Of a DNA stretch of 64,000 nt, positions 45,066 through 56,366 are shown piece after piece (the stretch's first letter is position 1; the number at the start of each line of letters is the position of its first letter). The notes beneath the pieces are model-generated. The model worked only from the letters and a program-made list of their open reading frames with translations. It made no database searches and had not been told where the DNA came from. Origin of the DNA: Paraglaciecola arctica BSs20135 (GTDB lineage: Bacteria > Pseudomonadota > Gammaproteobacteria > Enterobacterales > Alteromonadaceae). The DNA lies in the NCBI RefSeq assembly GCF_000314995.1, contig NZ_BAEO01000010.1:124001-188000 (forward strand), read 5' to 3'. The translations under genes were made by a program, and so were the position numbers.

Positions 45066-46469
45066 ATGACAGTTGAAACCTATACACCCAATAAAACCAC
45101 CACCCTAGAAACGCCGGTCAAAATATTAGAAGACTCGCCTGTACAAAAAACTAATGGCACCCGTATTGGTTTTGTTAGCCTAGGCTGCCCTAAGAATTTA
45201 GTAGACTCAGAGCGCATTTTGACTCAGTTACGTACTGAGGGATACGATGTAGTACCTACCTATAATGATTCAGATTTAGTGATAGTGAACACTTGTGGAT
45301 TTATCGATTCTGCTGTTCAAGAATCATTAGATACCATTGGTGAAGCGTTGGCCGAAAATGGCAAAGTGATAGTCACAGGTTGTTTGGGTATTAAAGAAGA
45401 TGAAATTCGTGAGGTACATCCTAATGTATTAGCCATTACTGGCCCTCATGCTTATGAAGAAGTCGTCAATCAAGTGCATGAACATTTGCCTAAACCTGAA
45501 CATAACCCTTATTTGAATTTAGTCCCGGACATTGGGATTAAATTGACTCCTAGGCACTATGCATATTTGAAAATATCAGAAGGCTGTAATCACCGTTGTA
45601 CATTCTGCATTATTCCGTCAATGCGTGGCGATTTAGATTCGCGCCCAGTGGGTGATGTGTTAGGTGAAGCGCAACGTTTGGTTAAAGCTGGCGTAAAAGA
45701 GTTGTTAGTTATTTCTCAAGATACTTCTGCTTATGGTGTTGATGTAAAGCACAAAACGGATTTTTGGGAAGGCATGCCAATTAAAACGCACATGCAGCAA
45801 TTATGTGAAGAATTGGCCAAGCAAGGCGTTTGGATACGCCTACATTACGTTTATCCGTATCCCCATGTGGATAAAATCATTCCATTAATGGCAGAAGGTA
45901 AAATATTACCGTATTTAGATATTCCCTTTCAGCATGCTAATAAACGTATATTAAAACTAATGAAACGCCCTGGTAGCTCAGACCGAGTATTAGAGCGCAT
46001 TGCTAAATGGCGTGAGACTTGTCCTGAATTAGTTATTCGTTCAACCTTTATTGTTGGCTTCCCCGGTGAAACAGAAGAAGAATTTGAAGAATTATTAGAC
46101 TTTTTAGAAGACGCACAATTAGACCGTGTCGGTTGTTTCAAATACTCTCCCGTTGAAGGCGCTACGGCGAATGCACTACCTGATCATGTTTCAGATGAAG
46201 TAATGGAAGACAGACTTCAACGCTTTATGGCAGTACAAGCGAAAATCAGTAGCGATAAATTACAAGCACGCATCGGGCAAGAATATCTCATTCTTGTTGA
46301 TGAAGTGAATGACCTTGGCATAGTAGGCCGCTCTTACATGGATGCACCAGAAGTTGATGGCAAAGTGTATATGTCGGATGATTTTGATGCTGAGCCGGGC
46401 GATCTGATTTGGGCGCAAATTATTCATGCCGATGAACATGATGTTTGGGGTGTTCGCGTAGAAGATTAA
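45066..46469 (+). CDS. rimO: Ribosomal protein S12 methylthiotransferase RimO
   Basis: 467 residues. The UPF0004 N-terminal domain has three cysteines for one 4Fe-4S cluster (SLGCPKN, VNTCGF, VTGCLG); the radical-SAM domain has CNHRCTFC for the second cluster, then [11 protein letters not shown] and [15 protein letters not shown]; the C-terminal TRAM domain ends DVWGVRVED. It adds a methylthio group to an Asp of ribosomal protein S12. The first 28 residues are an extension before [10 protein letters not shown]. It is a core gene placed inside an otherwise accessory block, with fragments of rimO copies at both block ends. Confidence 0.95.
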
Positions 46470-46514: not shown

Positions 46515-46677
46515 AGTATAAAACAATAATCATACTCATTCATTAAGTTAAAATTGTTCATCATATTTTATAGTTAGACGTTATTTTTAACGTTCTTTAG
46601 TCCCTAAGCTAACTAGTACAAAATATTACAACCTGACTAAGTATGATGACACTTTTATGAAACCTGCCTAAGTACTA

Positions 46678-46706
46678 TTGAATATTATCCTTTCTCTCTT
46701 TAAAAT
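46678..46706 (+). promoter_or_regulatory. phnW promoter
   Basis: TTGAAT (46678-46683) and TAAAAT (46701-46706) with 17 bases between form a good sigma-70 promoter. The expected start point (about 46713) falls inside the operator that follows. Confidence 0.6.
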
Positions 46707-46707
46707 C

Positions 46708-46719
46708 TGGTCTAGACCA
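46708..46719. promoter_or_regulatory. GntR/UTRA operator before phnW
   Basis: TGGTCTAGACCA is a perfect 12-bp palindrome. It is close to the TGGTATAGACCA site known for PhnF of the same GntR/HutC subfamily. It covers the predicted start point of phnW, 18 bases before the ATG, and recurs in extended form before the TonB receptor gene at 55395. Confidence 0.8.
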
Positions 46720-46737
46720 AATTAAAAAGATCATAAA

Positions 46738-47829
46738 ATGCAACATTATAAATTACTTACCCCTGGCCCATTAACCACCTCAGATACTGTTAAACAAGCA
46801 ATGTTAAAAGATTGGTGTACTTGGGATGACGATTATAATATTGATATCGTAGAAAATATTCGTACTAAAATCACTCAATACGCTACTGATGATCCTCGTT
46901 ATTCCAGTGTACTTATGCAAGGCAGCGGTACTGCATCAGTTGAAGCTGTACTTGGTAGCGCAATTAGCCGTGATGATAAAGTATTAATTATTAATAACGG
47001 CGCTTACGGCAAAAGAATGGCAGAAATTTGCGAAATTCTGCACCTGTCTCATCACGTGGTTAATTACCTTGAAGAAATACAGCCTGACATCGCAGAGATA
47101 ACATCCATTCTTGTTGAAGATAATAGTATTACGCATCTGGCTATGGTGCACTGTGAAACCACAACAGGAATGCTTAATCCTATTAATGAAATCGCTCATT
47201 TATGCCAACAACAAAAAATTACTTTTATTCTTGATGCGATGTCGAGTTTTGGGGGGATTGAATTTGATATAGGTAAGCTTGATATTGGTTTTATGATCAG
47301 TTCAGCCAATAAATGCATTCAAGGCGTGCCCGGCTTTGGCTTTATTGTGGCTAAACGCCAACTTCTTGAGGCATGTAAAGGCCAGGCCAAGTCATTGAGT
47401 TTAGATCTATATGAGCAATGGCACACTATGGAAACAACTAATGGAAAGTGGCGATTTACTTCCCCTACCCATGTTGTCAGAGCATTTTACCAAGCACTAA
47501 TAGAACTTGAAGATGAAAAGGGCATTACCGCACGTGCCAAGCGTTATGCACAAAATCAAACATTGCTGGTTCATGGTATGCGAAAGTTAGGCTTTAAAAC
47601 ACTGCTTAGGGATGAATTACAGTCCCCCATAATTACCTCCTTTTTATCACCTGATCACCCTGATTATGAATTCAAAAAATTCTATTATAAGTTGAAATCT
47701 TTAGGATTTGTGATTTACCCAGGTAAAGTGTCCAATGCCGATTGTTTTAGAATAGGTAACATCGGTGAAATATATACTGATGATATTGTGCAATTACTTG
47801 ATGCAGTAACGCAGGCTATCTACTGGTAA
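46738..47829 (+). CDS. phnW: 2-aminoethylphosphonate:pyruvate transaminase
   Basis: 363 residues of the class-V aminotransferase fold. The N-terminus [29 protein letters not shown] is diagnostic for PhnW. The PLP Lys is in [15 protein letters not shown] (about 187-201), and [13 protein letters not shown] supplies the cofactor Asp. It moves the amino group of AEP to pyruvate, giving phosphonoacetaldehyde and alanine in the cytoplasm. The partner phnX lies 2.5 kb away on the other strand (50294). An operator and promoter stand just upstream. No Shine-Dalgarno is evident. Confidence 0.93.
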
Positions 47830-47861
47830 TCGATTAGGTAAACAGATAAAATTTAAAACAG

Positions 47862-47890
47862 AAAAAAGCCGCACTATGATGCGGTTTTTA
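47862..47890. terminator. Bidirectional terminator between phnW and the GntR gene
   Basis: CCGCA and TGCGG with a 6-base loop, flanked by an A-run on the left and a T-run on the right, so it can end transcription from both convergent genes. Confidence 0.75.
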
Positions 47891-47984
47891 TAAATATACT
47901 CATATAACCTCAATTCGTCAGCTTCAGCGGAAGCATAAACCGCTTTAAAACCCGCCCGAAAGGAACGACTGCGGTTCTCCAATT

Positions 47985-48032
47985 CTTCGTTACGCCAATT
48001 CAGAGGATGATCGACATTCAGTCACTGATATG
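47985..48032 (+). repeat. Copy 1 of a dispersed ~45-bp element (direct repeat)
   Basis: Starts CTTCGTTACGCCAATTCAGA, then ATTCAGTCA. A second copy in the same orientation starts at 55600. Copy 1 is just outside the 3' end of the minus-strand phosphonate operon and copy 2 just outside its 5' end. Looser similarity (GGTGGNATG) continues to about 48085. On the minus strand the left-hand part reads RSRSFRAGFKAVYASAEADELR, a type of peptide I associate with repeated non-coding DNA, not with a gene. Confidence 0.6.
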
Positions 48033-48094
48033 TTTTGGATTAAAACGCCTAATCGTTCTGAAATGGGCATCTTGCGGTGGCATGGGTATAAGCT

Positions 48095-48799
48095 TTAGTT
48101 ACTAGTAACATTAATCTCAATAGCGCCATGCACCCAATATTCAATATTGTAATCAATTAGTTCATTGTTCTCATTAAAACGCTGTCTAAAAATCTTAAGG
48201 CAAGAAGCGCCGCTATTAAGTTGTAACTGCGCAGCTTTGTCTGCGGGCAATGCGGTAACATAAATACGACTACTTTCTCGGCTGATTTTTACATCATAAT
48301 CTTGGCTAAATATTGTCGTTATTGAGCCTTCAAGATCCTTCTTTTCTAGCCCCTCGAATTGTGCTGTTTGGCAGTATATTTCTTCCACCATGACAGGACG
48401 ATCATCAAGTGATCTCACTCGACATATTTTAAATAACGAAACATCAGTATCTTGGTTATTATTACCTACAAAAGCGCTGTTAACATCACCATCCACTTTG
48501 ACAGTATTAATCGCTATTAAACTAGTTTTAGCTAAAAAGTCCTGATCTTTCGCTAACTGGTAGAAATCAACTTTATTAACAGGATCCCATTGCAGCCTAG
48601 GGGGACAAATGAACCAACCTTTACGGTTTTGTCGATAAATGATCCCTTCAGTTTCCAAAAGCGTTAATGCTTCACGCACTGTGATACGTGTTGATTGAAA
48701 TAGTTCTAATAATTCCCGCTCAGAAGGCAGCTTTTTCATTGTTGGTTGCTGTTCAATAAGGGTGTAAATGTATTGTCTGATTTTTTGATAAAGTAACAT
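48095..48799 (-). CDS. GntR-family regulator with UTRA domain (PhnF/PhnR-like)
   Basis: 234 residues. The winged helix-turn-helix is MKKLPSERELLELFQSTRITVREALTLLETEGIIYRQNRKGWFI (about 20-63); the UTRA effector domain fills about 90-230. HutC/UTRA members sense small molecules, and relatives control phosphonate genes. It is the last gene on the minus strand of the AEP operon, 103 bases after the oxidoreductase. The two TGGTCTAGACCA-type palindromes in the window are the probable binding sites. The effector may be AEP or phosphonoacetaldehyde; this is inference. Confidence 0.85.
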   Translation of the reverse strand: MLLYQKIRQYIYTLIEQQPTMKKLPSERELLELFQSTRITVREALTLLETEGIIYRQNRKGWFICPPRLQWDPVNKVDFYQLAKDQDFLAKTSLIAINTVKVDGDVNSAFVGNNNQDTDVSLFKICRVRSLDDRPVMVEEIYCQTAQFEGLEKKDLEGSITTIFSQDYDVKISRESSRIYVTALPADKAAQLQLNSGASCLKIFRQRFNENNELIDYNIEYWVHGAIEINVTSN

Positions 48800-48902
48800 T
48801 TAAGTATGATCCTTAGCCAACTATTGCTCTATAAGCGTTAACCATAATTTTTACCGCCATAGCGTTGTTATAAGTGTACTATCTCTTTCATAACCTCGGT
48901 AC

Positions 48903-50297
48903 TCACTTATCTGCTTTACCGGCAGCTGCGGCAAACTTGGCCATTTGACAATCAAACCATTTCGCCCGTTGTTCACTGTCTTCAGCATGCTCTTTTCTCA
49001 ATACCGATTGTTTTACTATGTTAGCGCCTAAATAGCGAATAGGTTCAGGGGGGAAGGCTCCCAGCGGTCCTTTTGCCATAGGAGAACGAGTCCATTCATT
49101 ATCTAATTCTAACGCCAAAGAAGACAAAATTTCTCCACCTAAATAACTTTGTACCACCCCATTTCCTGAATAACCAAGCCCATAAAATACGTTATTATCT
49201 TCTGATAAGCGGCCAAAAAAAGGTAAACCTGTGGTTGAACGATCTGAGGCACCTGTCCATGTGGTTTCAAACGATGGTTTTAGTCTTGGAAAAAACTGAC
49301 CAAAAGCTTTAGTGAGCATGGGTTCAAAACGACTGGGCTGATCAAACGCGGGCAACATTTTATTGTTGTAGGCGAACATATTACCGCCTTTACCTAACAT
49401 CAATCGGCCGTCACTAGTGGTACGATAATAATGCACAAAAATTCGTGAATCAGCGATAGATTTACCATGACTTAGACCAATTTCAGCTAACTGTTCAGGC
49501 ATAGGTTTTGTGATGATCATATCTGACGATACTAAGGTAATGTGTCGATTGAATCTATTAAAGTGCTTCCCCATCCAAGCATTGATGGCAAAAATAACTT
49601 TAGTGGCGTTGACTTGTCCGGCACAGGTTTTTACTGTGGGTCTTTGACCAAAGGCAATATCTTTATATTCTGTTTGCTGGTAGATTTTCACACCAATTGA
49701 TAGGGCAAACTTCACTAAACCTAAGACTAATTTTCCTGGGTGTAATGACCCACCCGCTTTATTTTCTATCCCCGCCAAGTTATGGTCCGAGCCAGTAAAA
49801 CGCGCGGTATCTGCAGGTGATAAACGCTGCCACTGGTTCAACTTATGTTGTGATAATAGCTTAAGAGGTTGGCATAATGAGGTAATCTGCTGACTATTAG
49901 TTGCTGTATAAATCGCGCCATCGGTACGCACTTCCGCATCTATTTGATTCATTTGACAAAATTTTTCAATATCAAATACGGTTTGTTCTGACACCTTTAC
50001 CAGGCGTATAGCCTCAGCTAAACCATAAAATCGAATTAGTGATTGAAATTTAGTTGAAAAAGTCAACATACAGCCACCATTACGACCCGAAGCACCTTGC
50101 CCACAAAGACCTTTTTCAATAATAACAATACGCTTATTCGGGGCTTGTTGTTTGGCTTTTATTGCTGTCCATAATCCAGTATAACCGCCGCCGATAATAC
50201 AGATATCCGCAGTGATTTTTTTATCGAGCTTAGACATTTGAGGCATTGGTATGTTCGCCAATGCCTGTTCAAACCAAAAGGGCTTTATCAACTTCAT
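48903..50297 (-). CDS. FAD-dependent aminophosphonate oxidoreductase
   Basis: 464 residues of the DAO/GlpO-type fold. The FAD motif is ICIIGGGYTGLWTAIKA (about 31-47), followed by IEKGLCGQGASGRNGGC, and the C-terminal region has TWTGASDRSTTGLPFFGRL and YGLGYSGNGVVQSYLGGEIL. This is the pattern of the putative aminophosphonate oxidoreductases found beside phnW and phnX. Members oxidise AEP or its N-substituted forms to phosphonoacetaldehyde, so the enzyme could widen the range of usable aminophosphonates. It overlaps phnX by four bases and is therefore translationally coupled to it. The exact substrate is not certain. Confidence 0.85.
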   Translation of the reverse strand: MKLIKPFWFEQALANIPMPQMSKLDKKITADICIIGGGYTGLWTAIKAKQQAPNKRIVIIEKGLCGQGASGRNGGCMLTFSTKFQSLIRFYGLAEAIRLVKVSEQTVFDIEKFCQMNQIDAEVRTDGAIYTATNSQQITSLCQPLKLLSQHKLNQWQRLSPADTARFTGSDHNLAGIENKAGGSLHPGKLVLGLVKFALSIGVKIYQQTEYKDIAFGQRPTVKTCAGQVNATKVIFAINAWMGKHFNRFNRHITLVSSDMIITKPMPEQLAEIGLSHGKSIADSRIFVHYYRTTSDGRLMLGKGGNMFAYNNKMLPAFDQPSRFEPMLTKAFGQFFPRLKPSFETTWTGASDRSTTGLPFFGRLSEDNNVFYGLGYSGNGVVQSYLGGEILSSLALELDNEWTRSPMAKGPLGAFPPEPIRYLGANIVKQSVLRKEHAEDSEQRAKWFDCQMAKFAAAAGKADK

Positions 50298-51103
50298 GGC
50301 CGTTCGTTTCTTGCTCTAGCCGACATGATCAATTGGATCGTAGGAATAGCATCAGCTAGTGAATCAACGACATAGTGCGCTCCAGCCCGATAAAGTTCAT
50401 TATAAGCTTGCTGGCGTTTTAGCTGTTGTTGCTCTTTAGTTAACGCGAGCCATTCATTTTCAGTTAGACCAACCGCATTGCCGGTCAGAGCAATACCTAC
50501 AGTCCACATTCCCGCATTGAGTCCTTCAGTAATACCTGGAGTTGAATCGTCAAATTTAATACAATTAGCGACATTATTGATGCCAAGCTCTTGCACATTT
50601 TGTAGTGCCATCCATGGACCAGGACGTGAACCAGCAGCAATATCATCACTAGCCACCCAGCAATCCGGTTTATAGCCATAATCAGCGGCCACTGGTACTA
50701 AAATCTCCATGACTTCACGAGGGTAACCTGAACACGACCCAATTTTTATGTCTTGAAGTTTTAACCAATCTAATGTTGATAAAACGCCATCAATCGGCTT
50801 GGCGTGTTCAGCCACTTTAGCCTTTTGCAGTGGCATAAAGCTTTGATAAATGTCATCAACCACATCGTCTGTCATATCGTGACCAAATTGTTTGCGCCAT
50901 CTTGTCGCTAATTCAGGTTGTTGGCCTAAAGTTTTAATATGATCCCATTTTCCCATCCCCATAGGACCTCTAGCTTCACTCAAGCTAATGTCAAAATTGT
51001 ATGCTTGCTTAAATGCTTCAACAAAAATGGTGGTGGGCGCTACAGAGCCATAATCAACAACAGTACCTGCCCAATCAAGTATAACGGCTTCTATTTTTTG
51101 CAT
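50294..51103 (-). CDS. phnX: Phosphonoacetaldehyde hydrolase (phosphonatase)
   Basis: 269 residues of the haloacid dehalogenase superfamily. The nucleophile Asp10 is in VILDWAGTVVDYGS, the Schiff-base Lys52 is in GPMGMGKWDHI, and the later motifs are IGSCSGYPREVM and VASDDIAAGSRPGPW. All the residues that set phosphonatase apart from other HAD enzymes are present. It splits the C-P bond of phosphonoacetaldehyde to acetaldehyde and phosphate. It lies between the transporter gene (32 bases upstream) and the oxidoreductase gene (4-base overlap). Confidence 0.93.
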   Translation of the reverse strand: MQKIEAVILDWAGTVVDYGSVAPTTIFVEAFKQAYNFDISLSEARGPMGMGKWDHIKTLGQQPELATRWRKQFGHDMTDDVVDDIYQSFMPLQKAKVAEHAKPIDGVLSTLDWLKLQDIKIGSCSGYPREVMEILVPVAADYGYKPDCWVASDDIAAGSRPGPWMALQNVQELGINNVANCIKFDDSTPGITEGLNAGMWTVGIALTGNAVGLTENEWLALTKEQQQLKRQQAYNELYRAGAHYVVDSLADAIPTIQLIMSARARNERP

Positions 51104-51134
51104 AATAACTTTCCTATAAATAAAATGATGTGAT

Positions 51135-52466
51135 CTAACTCTGGATTGATTTAGCTTTACTCAAATTAAAATGAAATATTTTTTCAAAATTAAGTAACTT
51201 GTGACTGAAGTAAATTACCGAGCAGGTAACCAATAACCCACCAACAATTGAAACGACGTAACAAAGCTGTATAAAAAATGTCAACCAGCTAATATCTGGT
51301 GAAGCGAAAGTGCGATAAAGTAAAATACTAACGCTGCCGAGGTAACCAGCAGAGTCGGCAAGATAGAGAAGGAAACCAGCATTGGCGGTTGAACCAACAG
51401 CAGAAATCATCCGGTCAAACAAAAAACAATTGTAGGGGATATAGGCGATATACAATCCAGCGCCTAGCCAAACCATCCATGTTTTTCCATCAACTAACTG
51501 TTGTTCAAATAGAAAGGTACTGCCTCCTAATAACAAACAACCCAATAAAATAAAGCCGTGGTTACTTAAAAATGCTTTGCAGTTGTCTTTCACCATGACC
51601 ATAGCAGCAAGAACAACCAGCACAACTAACGCTATGCGTATGCCTGCATAAGCAAAAATGGCTGGCTCTTCACCATGACCGAGCGCTTGCCATATTTCCG
51701 CGGAAAAATTATCGCGAAAGTCACGTAGACCAGTAAACAGTAAGAAGCTCGAGATCAGTAATAAAATTCCAGGAGAGAAACGCAGGAAGAATGACCATCT
51801 TTGTTGGGCATTCATGGGTTGTCGTTCTTGGCGAGCAATACGATCACTTTTCGATGGTGCTGGCGTTTGTGCCAAAAAAAACACTGATAGACACAAAGGT
51901 AATAGGAAAATTGCCCCTGTTGTTACCGGCATCCAAAATTCGGGAATATTAATATCAACTAGGAGCCATTGACCTACAGTGCGCACTAACCCAGACGCAA
52001 TAATAAAAGTGACACTTAAAAAGGCCCCCAGTATTTCTGATGTTTTTCTTCCTTCTAGAAAACTAAAAACAATTCCCCATACCATGCCTAGCGGTACGCC
52101 ATTAATAAACATCATCAAGGGTTTGTATGGCTCAGGTACAATTGCAAACATCAACAAAGCAAATTGAGCAACAAATATTAGGCCTAATAATAAGCTAATA
52201 CGTTTATTCACTGTTAATTCAGAGATAATTTTAATACCAATAAATTTCGACAGTAAATATCCCAAAACTTGAGCCAAAACTAAGGCAACTTTAAAATCAA
52301 TGAAATCCCAGAAATTATCTGCTTGCTCATAACTAGCAACCGAAAACGGTTTTCGAAAAGCATACATACAAAAATATGTCATAAAAGCTGCAGAGGATGC
52401 ATACACAACAAAAATGGCGGTATGACAGCGTTGCAAATACAGTTGAATATTAAACATTGAACACAA
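51135..52466 (-). CDS. MFS-type transporter (DUF5690 family)
   Basis: 443 residues with about 12 hydrophobic segments in two halves, the second starting after the hydrophilic loop near 215-235 (PSKSDRIARQERQPMNAQQ). YFCMYAFRKPFSVASYE and MFINGVPLGMVWGIVFSFLEGRKTSE are typical of the DUF5690 group, which has been seen near phosphonate genes. It is second in the AEP operon, 61 bases after the TonB receptor gene, so it is likely to carry AEP or a related phosphonate across the inner membrane after uptake by the receptor. No ABC-type phosphonate importer (phnCDE) is present in the window. Confidence 0.75.
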   Translation of the reverse strand: MCSMFNIQLYLQRCHTAIFVVYASSAAFMTYFCMYAFRKPFSVASYEQADNFWDFIDFKVALVLAQVLGYLLSKFIGIKIISELTVNKRISLLLGLIFVAQFALLMFAIVPEPYKPLMMFINGVPLGMVWGIVFSFLEGRKTSEILGAFLSVTFIIASGLVRTVGQWLLVDINIPEFWMPVTTGAIFLLPLCLSVFFLAQTPAPSKSDRIARQERQPMNAQQRWSFFLRFSPGILLLISSFLLFTGLRDFRDNFSAEIWQALGHGEEPAIFAYAGIRIALVVLVVLAAMVMVKDNCKAFLSNHGFILLGCLLLGGSTFLFEQQLVDGKTWMVWLGAGLYIAYIPYNCFLFDRMISAVGSTANAGFLLYLADSAGYLGSVSILLYRTFASPDISWLTFFIQLCYVVSIVGGLLVTCSVIYFSHKLLNFEKIFHFNLSKAKSIQS

Positions 52467-52526
52467 CCCTAAAGGAATTACACTTTAAATAAACGGGAAG
52501 GCAGCCCTTCCCATTTGACAGAATGA

Positions 52527-55364
52527 TTAGAAAAAGTCGTATTTAAAGCCTAATTGTCCTCGGGTTCCGTAGTACTCAATTTGATTTGGGCGTTGCTCAG
52601 AGCCAGTGAAATACTCTAATGGTTCATCCGTTAAATTATTCAATTCAACATAAAGCATTGCTTGGGACGTTATTTGATAGGATGCAGTAAAATCAACGCT
52701 AGTGTAATCGCCATAGTAGGTATCAAGTGAGCTGTTACTGCCGTGATCTTCTATGTACTTACCTTTGTGATTAACCGCAATTCGTGCAGCAAGATTGCCA
52801 TTATCGTAATACATGCTGATATTGTATAACTCATCTGCTTGGCGAGAAACTTTAGCGTTATCAATACGCTCTGGAATAGCCATTTCCGAGTCCATCAGGG
52901 TAAAATTAAAAGCAATACCAAAATTATTCAGCTGCTCGCTAATAAAACCTAAATTACTATTGGTGGCAAATTCAATCCCATGTAACCAAGCATCATCACC
53001 ATTAAGTGGACTTTTTACGGTGACAGATTGATCTCGGTAGTTACCTTGATAACTTTGAGAAAAGACCGGGTCAATGATCTGTTTATAAAAATAGCCAACA
53101 GAAATGATACCGGCATCATCAAAGTAATGTTCATACATTAAATCAAAATTGTTTGAATAAGTTGGGTCTAACTCGGGGTTACCTGACTCTAATTCATTCT
53201 CCATTTCAGAATAAGTTGCTCCTGGGGATAATTGACCAAAGTCGGGCCGAGAAAAAGTTCTGGTTAATGCCAAACGAACGTTAGTCATATCATCTACATG
53301 ATAGGTAGCGTGTAGCGAGGGGAGAATTGACCAATAATTTTTACTTCCTTGTTCTGGTTCAACTGACGTGCCTTGATCCGTTTCAACGGCAACAAAACCA
53401 TGCACATCAGTTTTTGTTTGTGTTGCCCTAAGGCCACCTAATATGTTCCATTTATCCGATGGTTTATAGGTCGCCATTCCGTATAACGACATATGTGTTT
53501 CTTCCAAGTCGAAGTTGCGACTTAAGCCACCACCATTTTCGACAACTTCAGAGTCCCCCTCAAGAAAAGTAAGTTTATGCTGATTCTCATCCCACCAACG
53601 TTTTAAGTCATTAACGGGAATAACTTTAGAAAAAATTGATTGATAATCAATAGCGAAGTCTTCTAAGTAGTCCTCTCGTCCAGGTTGATTAACTAAATCA
53701 ATATTTAGGTCTGCGGCTACTTGAGCAAGTGTGGGTGTTGCACCATATTCAGCTTCGTTCCAACCGTAAAACTTGTCATAAAAATTCGCGTTTCGTTCCT
53801 TACTTCGGTATTTAAAGCCCGTTTTTAGCTCAAGTTGATTATTATAGTCATGCACTAAATCAAGTTGAGTGACAATTTTGTCACGTTCGTTAATATCTAT
53901 ACCATATAACTCAACATCAGCTAACACGGCTTTTGTTGGATCCATTGACCAATTACTCGGTAAATGAGTGGCAATTGATAAGGCCGGATCTGTTCCGCCG
54001 TCAATGGTATTATAAATCAAGCCACTGCCGGTATTTACGCCATCACGCATACCTACATCATCATCAAAATCAACACTTTGCTTGAACTTCACTACATAAT
54101 AGGCATTATCTTCACTATTAGGAATATCGCCATATTCAAATTGATTTTGATAGGTACTTAATTTCCAGTTCAAACGTGTGTTAAAAGAAAAATCATATTC
54201 GCCACCTATTTCAAAACCGTGCATTTCAGTATTGAGTTCATTGTAAATATGTTGTAATTCAACGCGGTTTTTATTATATCTAACACGACTTTTGTAATGG
54301 GTTTCTTCATCAGATAGTGTGCCGTACATTGCTTTGGCATAAATCAAACCATTATCGAGCAAATATTCAGCCGCCATATTTAAGCCAAAAGTGCTACGGG
54401 TTCCGGTGTAATCTCTCAGCTCTAAACGGTGAATGCCTGCTATGCCATCCGCATCAATAGCTCGGCGTGGTTCGTAGTTATCGGTAGCCCAGTCTCGTAC
54501 CCAGCCAGTACCATTTATTAAAAAACCAAACTTCCCATCTTCAGAACGATCACCATAAAGCACATTTAACGACTGACTGCCTCCTTCCGCTTTTTCCGAA
54601 GTGCCCGCACCTAAATTCACTGATAAGACTTGGTTACTTGGCGCTCGTCGCGTAATAAAGTTAACGTTACCACCTATAGCATCACCTTCCATATCAGGTG
54701 TTAATGCTTTTGAAACCTCAACCAATTCAATCATATCCGTTGGGAAAAAATCTAGTGCTACCGCTCTACTGGTTGTTTCTTCTTCTGCTGTTGGCAAACG
54801 ATCTCCATTTATAGACGTCGAATTCCATTGTGCAGGTAAACCACGAATGGCGACAAATCGACCTTCTCCTTGATCTCGTTCGATAGAAACACCAGGCATA
54901 CGTTGCAAGGCTTCAGCAGCATTTCTGTCGGGTAATTTACCTATTCCATCTGCTGACATCATATTTTTGATGCTGTTAGACTCTTTTTGCATATTAATCG
55001 ACTTCATCTCGCCGCGGCGCATATAACCAATGGATACAACTTCATCCAAGGGGTCTCTGCTCACGTTAAGATTTAAGCGACCTAAGTCTATCGATTTATC
55101 GTCTACAACAATAACATCGTACTCAGCAGTAGGATAACCAAGGTATTCAACACGAACTTTTTGCTTACCTGATGGTAAATAGTTTAGTGAAAATTGACCT
55201 TTAAGGTTTGTTGATGTTTCAAACTTACTACCAACAACGCTAACTTTAGCGCCAGATAAAGCCCCAGATGTATCACTGACTAGACCAGAAACAGCGCCAT
55301 CAGCGAGTGAATTTAGGCTATTAAGCGCTAATAAACTTACAGCAATAGGTGTTAACTTTCTCAT
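52527..55364 (-). CDS. TonB-dependent receptor of the AEP operon
   Basis: 945 residues from the ATG at 55364, preferred over the ATG at 55394 because GGGAG lies just before it and a clean signal peptide follows (MRKLTPIAVSLLALNSLNSLA). After that come a carboxypeptidase-regulatory-like beta domain (about 23-95), the plug (MKSINMQKESNSIKNMMSADGIGKLP, ALQRMPGVSIERDQGEGRFVAIRGL) and a large barrel ending LGFKYDFF. The type (CarbopepD domain plus Caulobacter-type plug) is usual for uptake of large organic nutrients. It is the first gene of the phosphonate operon and has an operator 31-46 bases ahead of the start. The ligand could be AEP or, more likely, an AEP-containing glycan or lipid. Confidence 0.85.
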   Translation of the reverse strand: MRKLTPIAVSLLALNSLNSLADGAVSGLVSDTSGALSGAKVSVVGSKFETSTNLKGQFSLNYLPSGKQKVRVEYLGYPTAEYDVIVVDDKSIDLGRLNLNVSRDPLDEVVSIGYMRRGEMKSINMQKESNSIKNMMSADGIGKLPDRNAAEALQRMPGVSIERDQGEGRFVAIRGLPAQWNSTSINGDRLPTAEEETTSRAVALDFFPTDMIELVEVSKALTPDMEGDAIGGNVNFITRRAPSNQVLSVNLGAGTSEKAEGGSQSLNVLYGDRSEDGKFGFLINGTGWVRDWATDNYEPRRAIDADGIAGIHRLELRDYTGTRSTFGLNMAAEYLLDNGLIYAKAMYGTLSDEETHYKSRVRYNKNRVELQHIYNELNTEMHGFEIGGEYDFSFNTRLNWKLSTYQNQFEYGDIPNSEDNAYYVVKFKQSVDFDDDVGMRDGVNTGSGLIYNTIDGGTDPALSIATHLPSNWSMDPTKAVLADVELYGIDINERDKIVTQLDLVHDYNNQLELKTGFKYRSKERNANFYDKFYGWNEAEYGATPTLAQVAADLNIDLVNQPGREDYLEDFAIDYQSIFSKVIPVNDLKRWWDENQHKLTFLEGDSEVVENGGGLSRNFDLEETHMSLYGMATYKPSDKWNILGGLRATQTKTDVHGFVAVETDQGTSVEPEQGSKNYWSILPSLHATYHVDDMTNVRLALTRTFSRPDFGQLSPGATYSEMENELESGNPELDPTYSNNFDLMYEHYFDDAGIISVGYFYKQIIDPVFSQSYQGNYRDQSVTVKSPLNGDDAWLHGIEFATNSNLGFISEQLNNFGIAFNFTLMDSEMAIPERIDNAKVSRQADELYNISMYYDNGNLAARIAVNHKGKYIEDHGSNSSLDTYYGDYTSVDFTASYQITSQAMLYVELNNLTDEPLEYFTGSEQRPNQIEYYGTRGQLGFKYDFF

Positions 55365-55380
55365 TGTATCTCCCAATATA

Positions 55381-55392
55381 ATTATCATTGTC
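55381..55392 (-). promoter_or_regulatory. Possible Fur-like hexamers in the receptor leader
   Basis: On the minus strand GACAATGATAAT, followed by TATATT, resembles two and a half of the NATAAT hexamers of a Fur site, between the GntR operator and the ATG. It is weaker than the box at 60963 and may be chance in AT-rich DNA. Confidence 0.25.
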
Positions 55393-55394
55393 AT

Positions 55395-55410
55395 TCTGGA
55401 CTAGACCAGA
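55395..55410. promoter_or_regulatory. GntR/UTRA operator before the AEP-operon receptor
   Basis: TCTGGACTAGACCAGA is a 16-bp palindrome with one mismatched pair. Its core GGNCTAGACCA agrees with the perfect palindrome before phnW (46708). It lies 31 bases ahead of the receptor ATG (55364). The same site in two separate places, both before genes of one pathway, supports a shared repressor. Confidence 0.8.
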
Positions 55411-55599
55411 TGGAAGGTATTCTAATTAGCATTTATGACATTTAGATTTCAAAAAAATGACAAGTACTTTAATAATTTATGGCTGGACGAAACATGCTCA
55501 ACTGTTAGAAAGGGTATGGAGACTTATCAGTGAGGATCTAAGTTAATAGAAAAGACAGATTCAATCCCTCCCAAAATGGCACATTTGGGCACACTACGT

Positions 55600-55647
55600 C
55601 TTCGTTGCGCCAATTCAGAAGCGGACCAAAATTCAGTCATTGAAGTG
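55600..55647 (+). repeat. Copy 2 of the dispersed ~45-bp element
   Basis: Starts CTTCGTTGCGCCAATTCAGA and then ATTCAGTCA, matching copy 1 at 47985 at about 37 of 48 bases, same orientation. It lies between the 5' end of the AEP operon and the rimO 3' remnant. Confidence 0.6.
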
Positions 55648-55730
55648 CCCAAGTCGCTTTTAAACGCACATGTTGAGGTGGTATGCCAGTCAAAACTAAG
55701 ATAATATCGTTTTGTGGAAAAACGGAGATA

Positions 55731-56366
55731 TAAGTACGTTTATACGGTGTCTCACCCTAGCCTTCTGAGAGCAAAACTATGTCTTTGTTGGCACAAGGGG
55801 AAATACGTTCTTATTTAAATATTCCTTTTCAACACACCAGTCCTAGCATTCTAAAACTGATGAAACAGCCAGCTGCTGAACACACTATGAAACGAATCAA
55901 AATATGGTGTGAGATTTGCTCGAAAATTGTTAGTCGCTCGACTTTTATTGTAGGTTTCCCCGGTGAAACTGAAGAAGACTTTCAGATGTTGTTGGACTTT
56001 TTAGATGAAGCCTATTTAAACCCTGTAGGCTGTTTTAAATATTCAGATGTAGACGGCGCAAAAGCGAACGACTGACCCGATCTCGTAAGCGAAGACATTA
56101 AACAAGAACGTTAAAAGCGTTTTATGCAAAAACAATCATAGATCTGCACGGCCAAATTAAAAGAAAAAATTGGCTTAGAATATCAAGTGACTATCGATGA
56201 AGTCACACCAGAAGGCGCAGTGGGACGATGTTATGCCGATGCACCTGAGATTGATGGTAATGTACATTTAACTGATGAATTTGATGTAGAACCTGGGGAT
56301 ATTATCTGGGCGCAAATCATTCACTCCAATGAATATGATGTTTGGGGTGTGCGCGTAGAAGATTAG
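55731..56366 (+). pseudogene. rimO: 3' remnant of a rimO-like gene
   Basis: From about 55731 the sequence follows the second half of RimO. After a frameshift near 55770 one frame runs from 55779 to 56366 and reads [35 protein letters not shown] and [15 protein letters not shown], then in-frame TGA (56073), TAA and TAG codons, then a TRAM end DVWGVRVED identical to that of the intact rimO. Protein identity is about 60-65 percent in the middle and higher at the end, by eye. It lacks the first half including both iron-sulphur cluster sites and cannot work. Confidence 0.9.

Follow-up and report, generated by a model that had tools for sequence, protein, structure and literature searches.

In the window analysed here, a stretch of 64,000 nucleotides from the marine bacterium Paraglaciecola arctica BSs20135 (contig NZ_BAEO01000010.1, positions 124,001 to 188,000), a TonB-dependent receptor is encoded together with a DUF5690 membrane protein, enzymes that degrade 2-aminoethylphosphonate (AEP) and a PhnR-like regulator. 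We regard it as likely that this locus is a self-contained unit for phosphonate acquisition, in which the receptor would import the substrate, the DUF5690 protein would act as permease, PhnW, a flavin adenine dinucleotide (FAD)-dependent enzyme and PhnX would carry out catabolism, and PhnR and PhoB would control expression. The best reading of the locus and its relatives is a dedicated TonB-dependent import route for phosphonates with apparently exchangeable catabolic modules. A wider proposal is more tentative, and we hold it with slightly less than even confidence: the receptor, as an undescribed family, and DUF5690 would form a conserved core that imports esterified aminophosphonates, namely AEP and N-methyl-AEP bound to lipids or glycans, in Gammaproteobacteria, an alphaproteobacterium and Bacteroidota, with secreted phosphodiesterases freeing the head group and with free exchange of the catabolic module. 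An earlier, sequence-only reading of this DNA had noticed the AEP genes, the receptor and a palindrome. Its observation is confirmed and is more general than was supposed, and its interpretation is partly supported; the Pho-box-like repeats and the phosphate-antiporter-like fold of DUF5690 described below are additions to it.

Gene content and linkage to phosphonate loci

The gene phnW (46738-47829, + strand), encoding AEP:pyruvate transaminase (TIGR02326, 583.8 bits, cut-off 400.8), is convergent with a minus-strand operon. The head of this operon is the TonB-dependent receptor gene (52527-55364, within an open reading frame (ORF) that extends up to 55394; TIGR01782, score 470, cut-off 310), followed by the DUF5690 gene, for a putative inner-membrane permease of major facilitator superfamily (MFS) fold (51135-52466; PF18943, 535.5 bits), phnX, for phosphonoacetaldehyde hydrolase (50294-51103; TIGR01422, score 328.3, cut-off 220), an FAD-dependent aminophosphonate oxidoreductase gene (48903-50297; score 665.8 against a cut-off of 632.8 for TIGR03329, a hypothetical-equivalog model) and a phnR-like GntR/UTRA regulator gene (48095-48799). 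The best NCBIfam match of the regulator is PhnR (TIGR03337), at 215.1 bits, which is below the curated equivalog cut-off of 296.75. PhnW and PhnX both exceed their curated cut-offs, in line with the hydrolytic PhnWX pathway, as does the oxidoreductase; the claim that these genes form one complete AEP pathway is supported.

The true start of the receptor is probably 55364 and not the first ATG at 55394, because most aligned relatives begin there and a GGGAG lies upstream. The protein has plug and barrel domains (PF07715, PF00593), and its structure model (predicted local distance difference test (pLDDT) score 85.2) matches the TonB-receptor class (best E 3e-34). The best 50 PDB fold matches are receptors for haem, siderophores, transferrin, copper, cobalamin and similar ligands, and none of these 50 names a phosphorus ligand. 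None of the six genes of the window locus, all of them typed, encodes SusD; elsewhere the typing covered representatives of recurrent groups.

Comparison with other genomes gives firmer evidence for the linkage of this receptor to phosphonate catabolism. In a set of 147 related genomes, the window's own included, the receptor has matches (48-77% identity) in four others. It stands with the whole operon in G085, as receptor-phnX-FAD-phnR in G080 and as receptor-phnX-FAD-HD in G011, where DUF5690 and phnW lie about 10 kb away; the fourth genome is G055. A scan of a collection of species genomes found 414 places, of which the best 80 were kept (19 named genera and six metagenome-assembled genomes (MAGs), with 29 loci from Chryseobacterium), and these make 81 receptor loci with that of the window. 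Neighbours were assigned with hidden Markov models (HMMs) built from clusters, and one or two members of each cluster served to type it; the representative for PhnX-like hydrolases falls slightly short of the TIGR03351 cut-off (213.7 vs 218.9). At least one of FAD oxidoreductase (TIGR03329- or TIGR03364-like), PhnX, PhnX-like hydrolase and PhnW was found within 10 kb at 77 of the 81 loci, a PhnX or PhnX-like hydrolase at 74 and DUF5690 likewise at 74. When Chryseobacterium is excluded, the figures are 48/52 for catabolic genes and 45/52 for DUF5690.

One of the four other loci (L063, from G055, Marinifaba aquimaris; also L039 507-13721, on the same contig) has the receptor at the head of a carbon-phosphorus (C-P) lyase operon, with PhnF, PhnC, PhnD-like, PhnE, PhnG, PhnH, PhnI, PhnJ, PhnK-like, PhnM and PhnN, the PhnD and PhnK proteins both scoring under their own NCBIfam cut-offs. 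The receptor would therefore accompany phosphonates whichever enzyme cleaves them. The sequence-only reading had tied the receptor to phosphonate loci, and among the best 80 of 414 places plus the window's, its homologues are indeed found mostly inside such loci and not outside them. The catabolic sets differ between groups: Alteromonadales and one unplaced gammaproteobacterial MAG have phnX with TIGR03329, joined by phnW in 19 of 22 loci; Microbulbifer, Cellvibrio, Ferrimonas and the alphaproteobacterium Woodsholea have TIGR03364 with PhnX; and Bacteroidota have TIGR03364 with the PhnX-like hydrolase.

Controls point in the same direction. Eight of eight loci of the next-best receptors (30-34% identical paralogues, 391-447 bits with the family HMM) contain neither DUF5690 nor a phosphonate gene above threshold; one of them has weak matches (HAD 41 bits, FAD 26 bits). 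Among 369 genomes drawn evenly from the class, the receptor occurs in two (above 1300 bits; the next match is at 264), one being the window's own; DUF5690 exceeds its cut-off in these two genomes and in no other of the 369. In a tree, the receptor family stands apart from the paralogues (support 0.91), and ten arginines are kept in at least 56 of 57 family rows and in at most two of eight paralogues. Tree and residue comparison omit 24 Chryseobacterium loci, L103, and L073 with its split frames.

This last locus, from Colwellia maritima (L073 10010-17940), has the receptor, DUF5690 and FAD frames each split in the assembly, through either decay or sequencing error. Separately, an HD-domain oxygenase of phosphonate type often lies between the FAD enzyme and phnR (L044 16460-17011 and 17 others of the 81; also L016 6027-6650); its representative is below the TIGR03276 cut-off, and the window locus has no such gene.

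Operators and Pho-box-like repeats

A perfect palindrome, TGGTCTAGACCA (O1, 46708-46719), ends 18 bases upstream of the phnW ATG, and a near-copy, TGGACTAGACCA (55397-55408), which lies within the longer site TCTGGACTAGACCAGA (O2, 55395-55410), ends 32 bases before the receptor start. The sequence-only reading had reported both sites correctly and had placed the first, wrongly, on the start point of phnW. Counted within the window by itself, with up to two mismatches allowed, the motif is no commoner than expected by chance (2 found, 1.58 expected); significance from the window was therefore dropped and conservation was used instead. In the 5.96 Mb genome, the exact palindrome and the near-copy each occur once. 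Seven places in the genome fit a relaxed PhnR-site pattern, two of them at this locus; of the other five, L132 and L133 were inspected, and none could be tied to phosphonates.

The palindrome is taken to be real because it is conserved before the same genes in relatives. In 80 loci (1.70 Mb) there are 53 sites with at most one mismatch, and 52 of these stand close ahead of a gene of the system (receptor, phnW, phosphodiesterase, DUF5690 or FAD), at most about 250 bases from its start or slightly inside it. In loci with a phnR-type regulator, such a site precedes 25 of 26 testable receptors, the window's included (the miss, L062, has two mismatches, and the start of a 27th receptor is too close to a contig end for testing), 16 of 19 phnW genes, again with the window's (L048 has its site inside the called start; L055 and L072 have two mismatches each), and all five phosphodiesterase genes. 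The claim of one operator common to both units thus stands for this type of locus. No site with at most one mismatch was found in 896 kb of loci with an XRE regulator, where 0 of 40 receptors are preceded by one; loci with neither regulator have it before 2 of 13 testable receptors and 2 of 2 phnW genes. A first background of 244 regions (7 with at most one mismatch) was replaced, as it included ORFs that share intergenic regions with genes of the system. The remaining site of the 53 lies inside the phn region of Paraglaciecola hydrolytica (L050 2304-6275), before an operon for a 193-aa protein, a HupE-like protein and a second TonB receptor.

The likeness of the core to the PhnF site, to which the sequence-only reading had drawn attention, is a weak clue, the same sequence being familiar as a general GntR/HutC (DasR) operator; the 12-base palindrome is presumably identical to, or one base off, PhnF/DasR-type operators. 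Here, by difference, the regulator is PhnR-like and the sites precede receptor and phosphodiesterase genes in addition to those of enzymes.

A sigma-70-like promoter, TTGAAT-17-TAAAAT (46678-46706, + strand), lies directly before O1; with 1 found vs 1.8 expected in shuffles, it is no evidence by itself. On the minus strand, a -10-like TAGAAT (55419-55424), seen by eye and not reported by the promoter scan, lies between a Pho-box-like repeat and O2. The position of the operator directly after promoter-like sequence suggests that PhnR acts as a repressor at these sites.

Pho-box-like direct repeats, scored with a general Pho-box consensus, are found upstream of both units: GTTTCATAAAAGTGTCAT before phnW (46646-46663, - strand; score 22, p 0.004 vs 264 upstream regions) and, before the receptor (55434-55463, - strand; score 20, p 0.034), TTGTCATTTTTTTGAAAT (55463-55446) followed by a third half-site read by eye, TGTCATA (55440-55434). 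In a sample of 35 of the 81 loci (L043-L076 and the window's), a score of at least 20 was reached before 54.5% of 33 receptors, 52.4% of 21 phnW and 40% of 5 phosphodiesterase genes. Among the controls, the share was 2.7% for 149 other intergenic regions, 0% for 61 genes further down the operons and 1-3% for shuffled sequences. The repeats point away from phnW in the window and several near relatives. This enrichment supports Pho control, through a presumed action of PhoB, and does not prove it, since the regions are related by descent.

Proposed transport, substrate and alternatives

In the mechanism that we propose, the TonB-powered receptor would carry an aminophosphonate that is scarce or bulky into the periplasm. 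Esterified forms, such as the head groups of lipids or glycans, may in many relatives be cut by a secreted type I phosphodiesterase, either in the periplasm or outside the cell, and DUF5690, as a carrier of organophosphate:phosphate antiporter (OPA) type, would move the freed aminophosphonate into the cytoplasm, perhaps against phosphate. There, phosphonoacetaldehyde would be formed from AEP by PhnW, and probably from N-methyl-AEP by the FAD enzyme, before PhnX frees phosphate and acetaldehyde. PhnR, bound to operators at or just after the transcription start of both units, would repress them until a phosphonate ligand is present, and PhoB would raise expression in phosphate starvation.

The role given to DUF5690 draws on its predicted fold and gene linkage. 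Its model (pLDDT 93.7) has its nearest MFS neighbour in the OPA family: the top five PDB matches found with Foldseek (ranks 1-5) are all human G6PT1/SLC37A4, the glucose-6-phosphate:phosphate exchanger. A profile search of PDB sequences up to E 10 returned SLC37A4 as sole match, at a non-significant E of 0.11, and a search with the single sequence gave no PDB match up to E 1. The alignment with SLC37A4 covers an invariant YxxRKxF segment, with RK in the first long helix. R38 and R248 of DUF5690 are invariant in 46/46 sequences; R38 aligns with the RK of SLC37A4, and R248 is unaligned to any solved structure. In GlpT, the phosphate-binding arginines lie in helices 1 and 7. Fold and linkage together suggest that DUF5690 is an antiporter-type permease for phosphonates, with a function that parallels that of AepP (PMC8316502). 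The available text of that paper describes AepP as an inner-membrane carrier of an AEP cluster, related to the GlpT organophosphate:phosphate antiporters, and gives 27.75% identity to GlpT (PMC8316502), whereas DUF5690 forms a Pfam family by itself, and its sequence match to SLC37A4 stays below threshold. That DUF5690 could be AepP itself was rejected, given the GlpT-likeness of AepP and the lack of a single-sequence PDB match. TonB and the outer membrane are not mentioned in the text of the AepP paper, and the term DUF5690 was not found in the open-access papers searched.

As regards the substrate, PF01663 type I phosphodiesterases occur in 38 of the 81 loci (32 XRE-type, 5 phnR-type). Their N-termini look lipobox- or signal-like by eye, and the representative of the larger cluster carries a type IX secretion system (T9SS) tail. 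Some loci contain other phosphoesterases: a metallophosphoesterase in L050 (as in L014), a member of the endonuclease/exonuclease/phosphatase family in L070 and an alkaline phosphatase in L052. Gastropods make sphingophosphonolipids with N-methyl-AEP, degradation of host lipids by Vibrio has been suggested, and FAD enzymes of such clusters oxidise N-methyl-AEP, according to the portions of the source at hand (PMC10590968). The recurrence of these esterases and the lipid data lead us to favour esterified aminophosphonates as the reason for the receptor. The sequence-only reading had expected a larger substrate, which the five operator-bearing phosphodiesterases support indirectly. That support is weaker in the window's own type of locus.

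Several observations weigh against the proposed route as a whole. The locus counts are not independent, being the best 80 of 414 with 29 from Chryseobacterium, and the distant end of the family falls outside the sample. Three loci show no catabolic gene over threshold (L069, where a PF01266 FAD oxidoreductase adjoins the receptor; L077, where none was seen; and L103, which stops at a contig edge), and four have a single one (L070, L078, L079 and L080). Many MFS carriers fit the DUF5690 fold (357 matches at E <=0.001). DUF5690, which exceeds its cut-off in 7 of the 147 genomes, is accompanied by this receptor in 4; in G080 the two are far apart, with only an HD gene adjoining DUF5690. In G067, G081 and G127, it lies within about 8 kb of another TonB receptor and a phosphoesterase; in G067 (L019 9068-16670) these are a receptor from outside the family and a PhoD phosphatase, and no phosphonate gene was found. 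DUF5690 is also present in Caulobacter vibrioides. A PF01663 phosphodiesterase is found in just 1 of the 22 loci of the window's catabolic type, and no match to the catalytic part was obtained in the window's genome; a candidate there was rejected, as only a C-terminal part matched, elsewhere in the genome. The ester reading is thus weaker for the window. Finally, AEP is small enough for porins.

The phosphodiesterase results just given would suit a receptor that scavenges free AEP or N-methyl-AEP at very low levels, with no ester involved. The ten conserved arginines fit an anionic ligand, and no PhnD-type binding protein (TIGR01098) that could concentrate AEP was found in the window's genome, a negative that also favours the proposed route; other ATP-binding cassette (ABC) uptake proteins, for example of AepX type, were not searched for, and this limit counts against that route. 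Such scavenging is nevertheless rather unlikely, since all five phosphodiesterases of phnR-type loci, with their signal-like N-termini, carry the PhnR operator, and some phosphodiesterase-free loci contain the other phosphoesterases named above (L050, L070, L052).

It is improbable that the receptor serves organophosphates in general, taking up phosphate esters and nucleotides, the cargo proposed for PUS loci of Flavobacterium, with phosphonates as one of several substrates. Phosphodiesterases of this kind are not specific for phosphonates, Pho-box-like repeats are present, the published PusCD case offers a precedent (excerpts of PMC8115612), and DUF5690 resembles phosphate-ester antiporters; its neighbourhood in G067 indicates that it may also serve phosphate esters. 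However, phosphonate-catabolic families are found at 77/81 receptor loci and C-P lyase at one more, and PhnR operators precede receptor and phosphodiesterase genes alike.

DUF5690 could also export surplus phosphate instead of importing phosphonate, as its antiporter-like fold would permit; a bacterium using AEP as nitrogen source does export phosphate, in the available portion of PMC8316502. We judge this decidedly improbable, because DUF5690 is the carrier that recurs at 74/81 loci and the groups that were typed include no second recurrent carrier of the inner membrane. That the receptor imports another cargo (iron chelate, cofactor or phosphonate antibiotic) and is merely co-regulated is very improbable: its best fold matches are haem and siderophore receptors, as expected of the whole class, but the recurrent neighbour groups that were typed include no genes for siderophores or cofactors, the permease partner is phosphate-ester-like and the linkage persists across catabolic types.

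The preferred reading, TonB-dependent import of phosphonates, has a nearest precedent that the sequence-only reading did not know when it held that no such receptor had been described. In Flavobacterium, PusCD outer-membrane complexes are co-localised with phosphonate-degrading enzymes and respond to low phosphate, as far as the accessible text goes (PMC8115612). They combine SusC with a SusD lipoprotein partner, whereas the present receptor is of the TIGR01782 type in an operon with no SusD gene; they belong to six differing clusters, the commonest of which (PUSI) is predicted to serve phosphodiesters, whereas one receptor-permease pair recurs here (PMC8115612, in part). The phnWX pathway with Pbf FAD enzymes, in the portion of its description available, has PhnW, PhnX and an FAD-dependent oxidoreductase in common with the window, and its text does not mention TonB or the outer membrane (PMC10590968). 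Among the open-access matches listed, titles and abstract openings describe no other TonB-dependent phosphonate receptor; one TonB passage in the part of PMC5720770 available is unrelated. A review, in the section at hand, presumes that phosphonates reach the periplasm via porins (PMC10574752). If the preferred reading is true, the receptor-permease pair would be a marker gene for the uptake of bound phosphonates in sea and soil, DUF5690 would gain a function, and the return of phosphonolipids from invertebrates and phosphonoglycans from bacteria to the phosphorus cycle would have a route open to testing.

Flanks of the cluster

Two intergenic sequences flanking the minus-strand operon (47984-48028 and 55599-55643) have a 45-base segment in common, with 82% identity, which is perhaps a small dispersed element. 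An intact rimO (45066-46469, + strand) lies before the phn cluster, and the degraded 3' half of a second rimO (55680-56363, + strand) lies beyond it. Across 98 residues, the identity of the remnant is 74-78% to the rimO of 20 of 21 members of the genus, 60% to the intact copy and 61% to that of G004. The intact copy is nearest to rimO of other genera (87-88%), followed by G004 (85%) and other members of the genus (76-81%). From this pattern of identities, the native rimO may have been displaced by a foreign copy that arrived together with the phn block.

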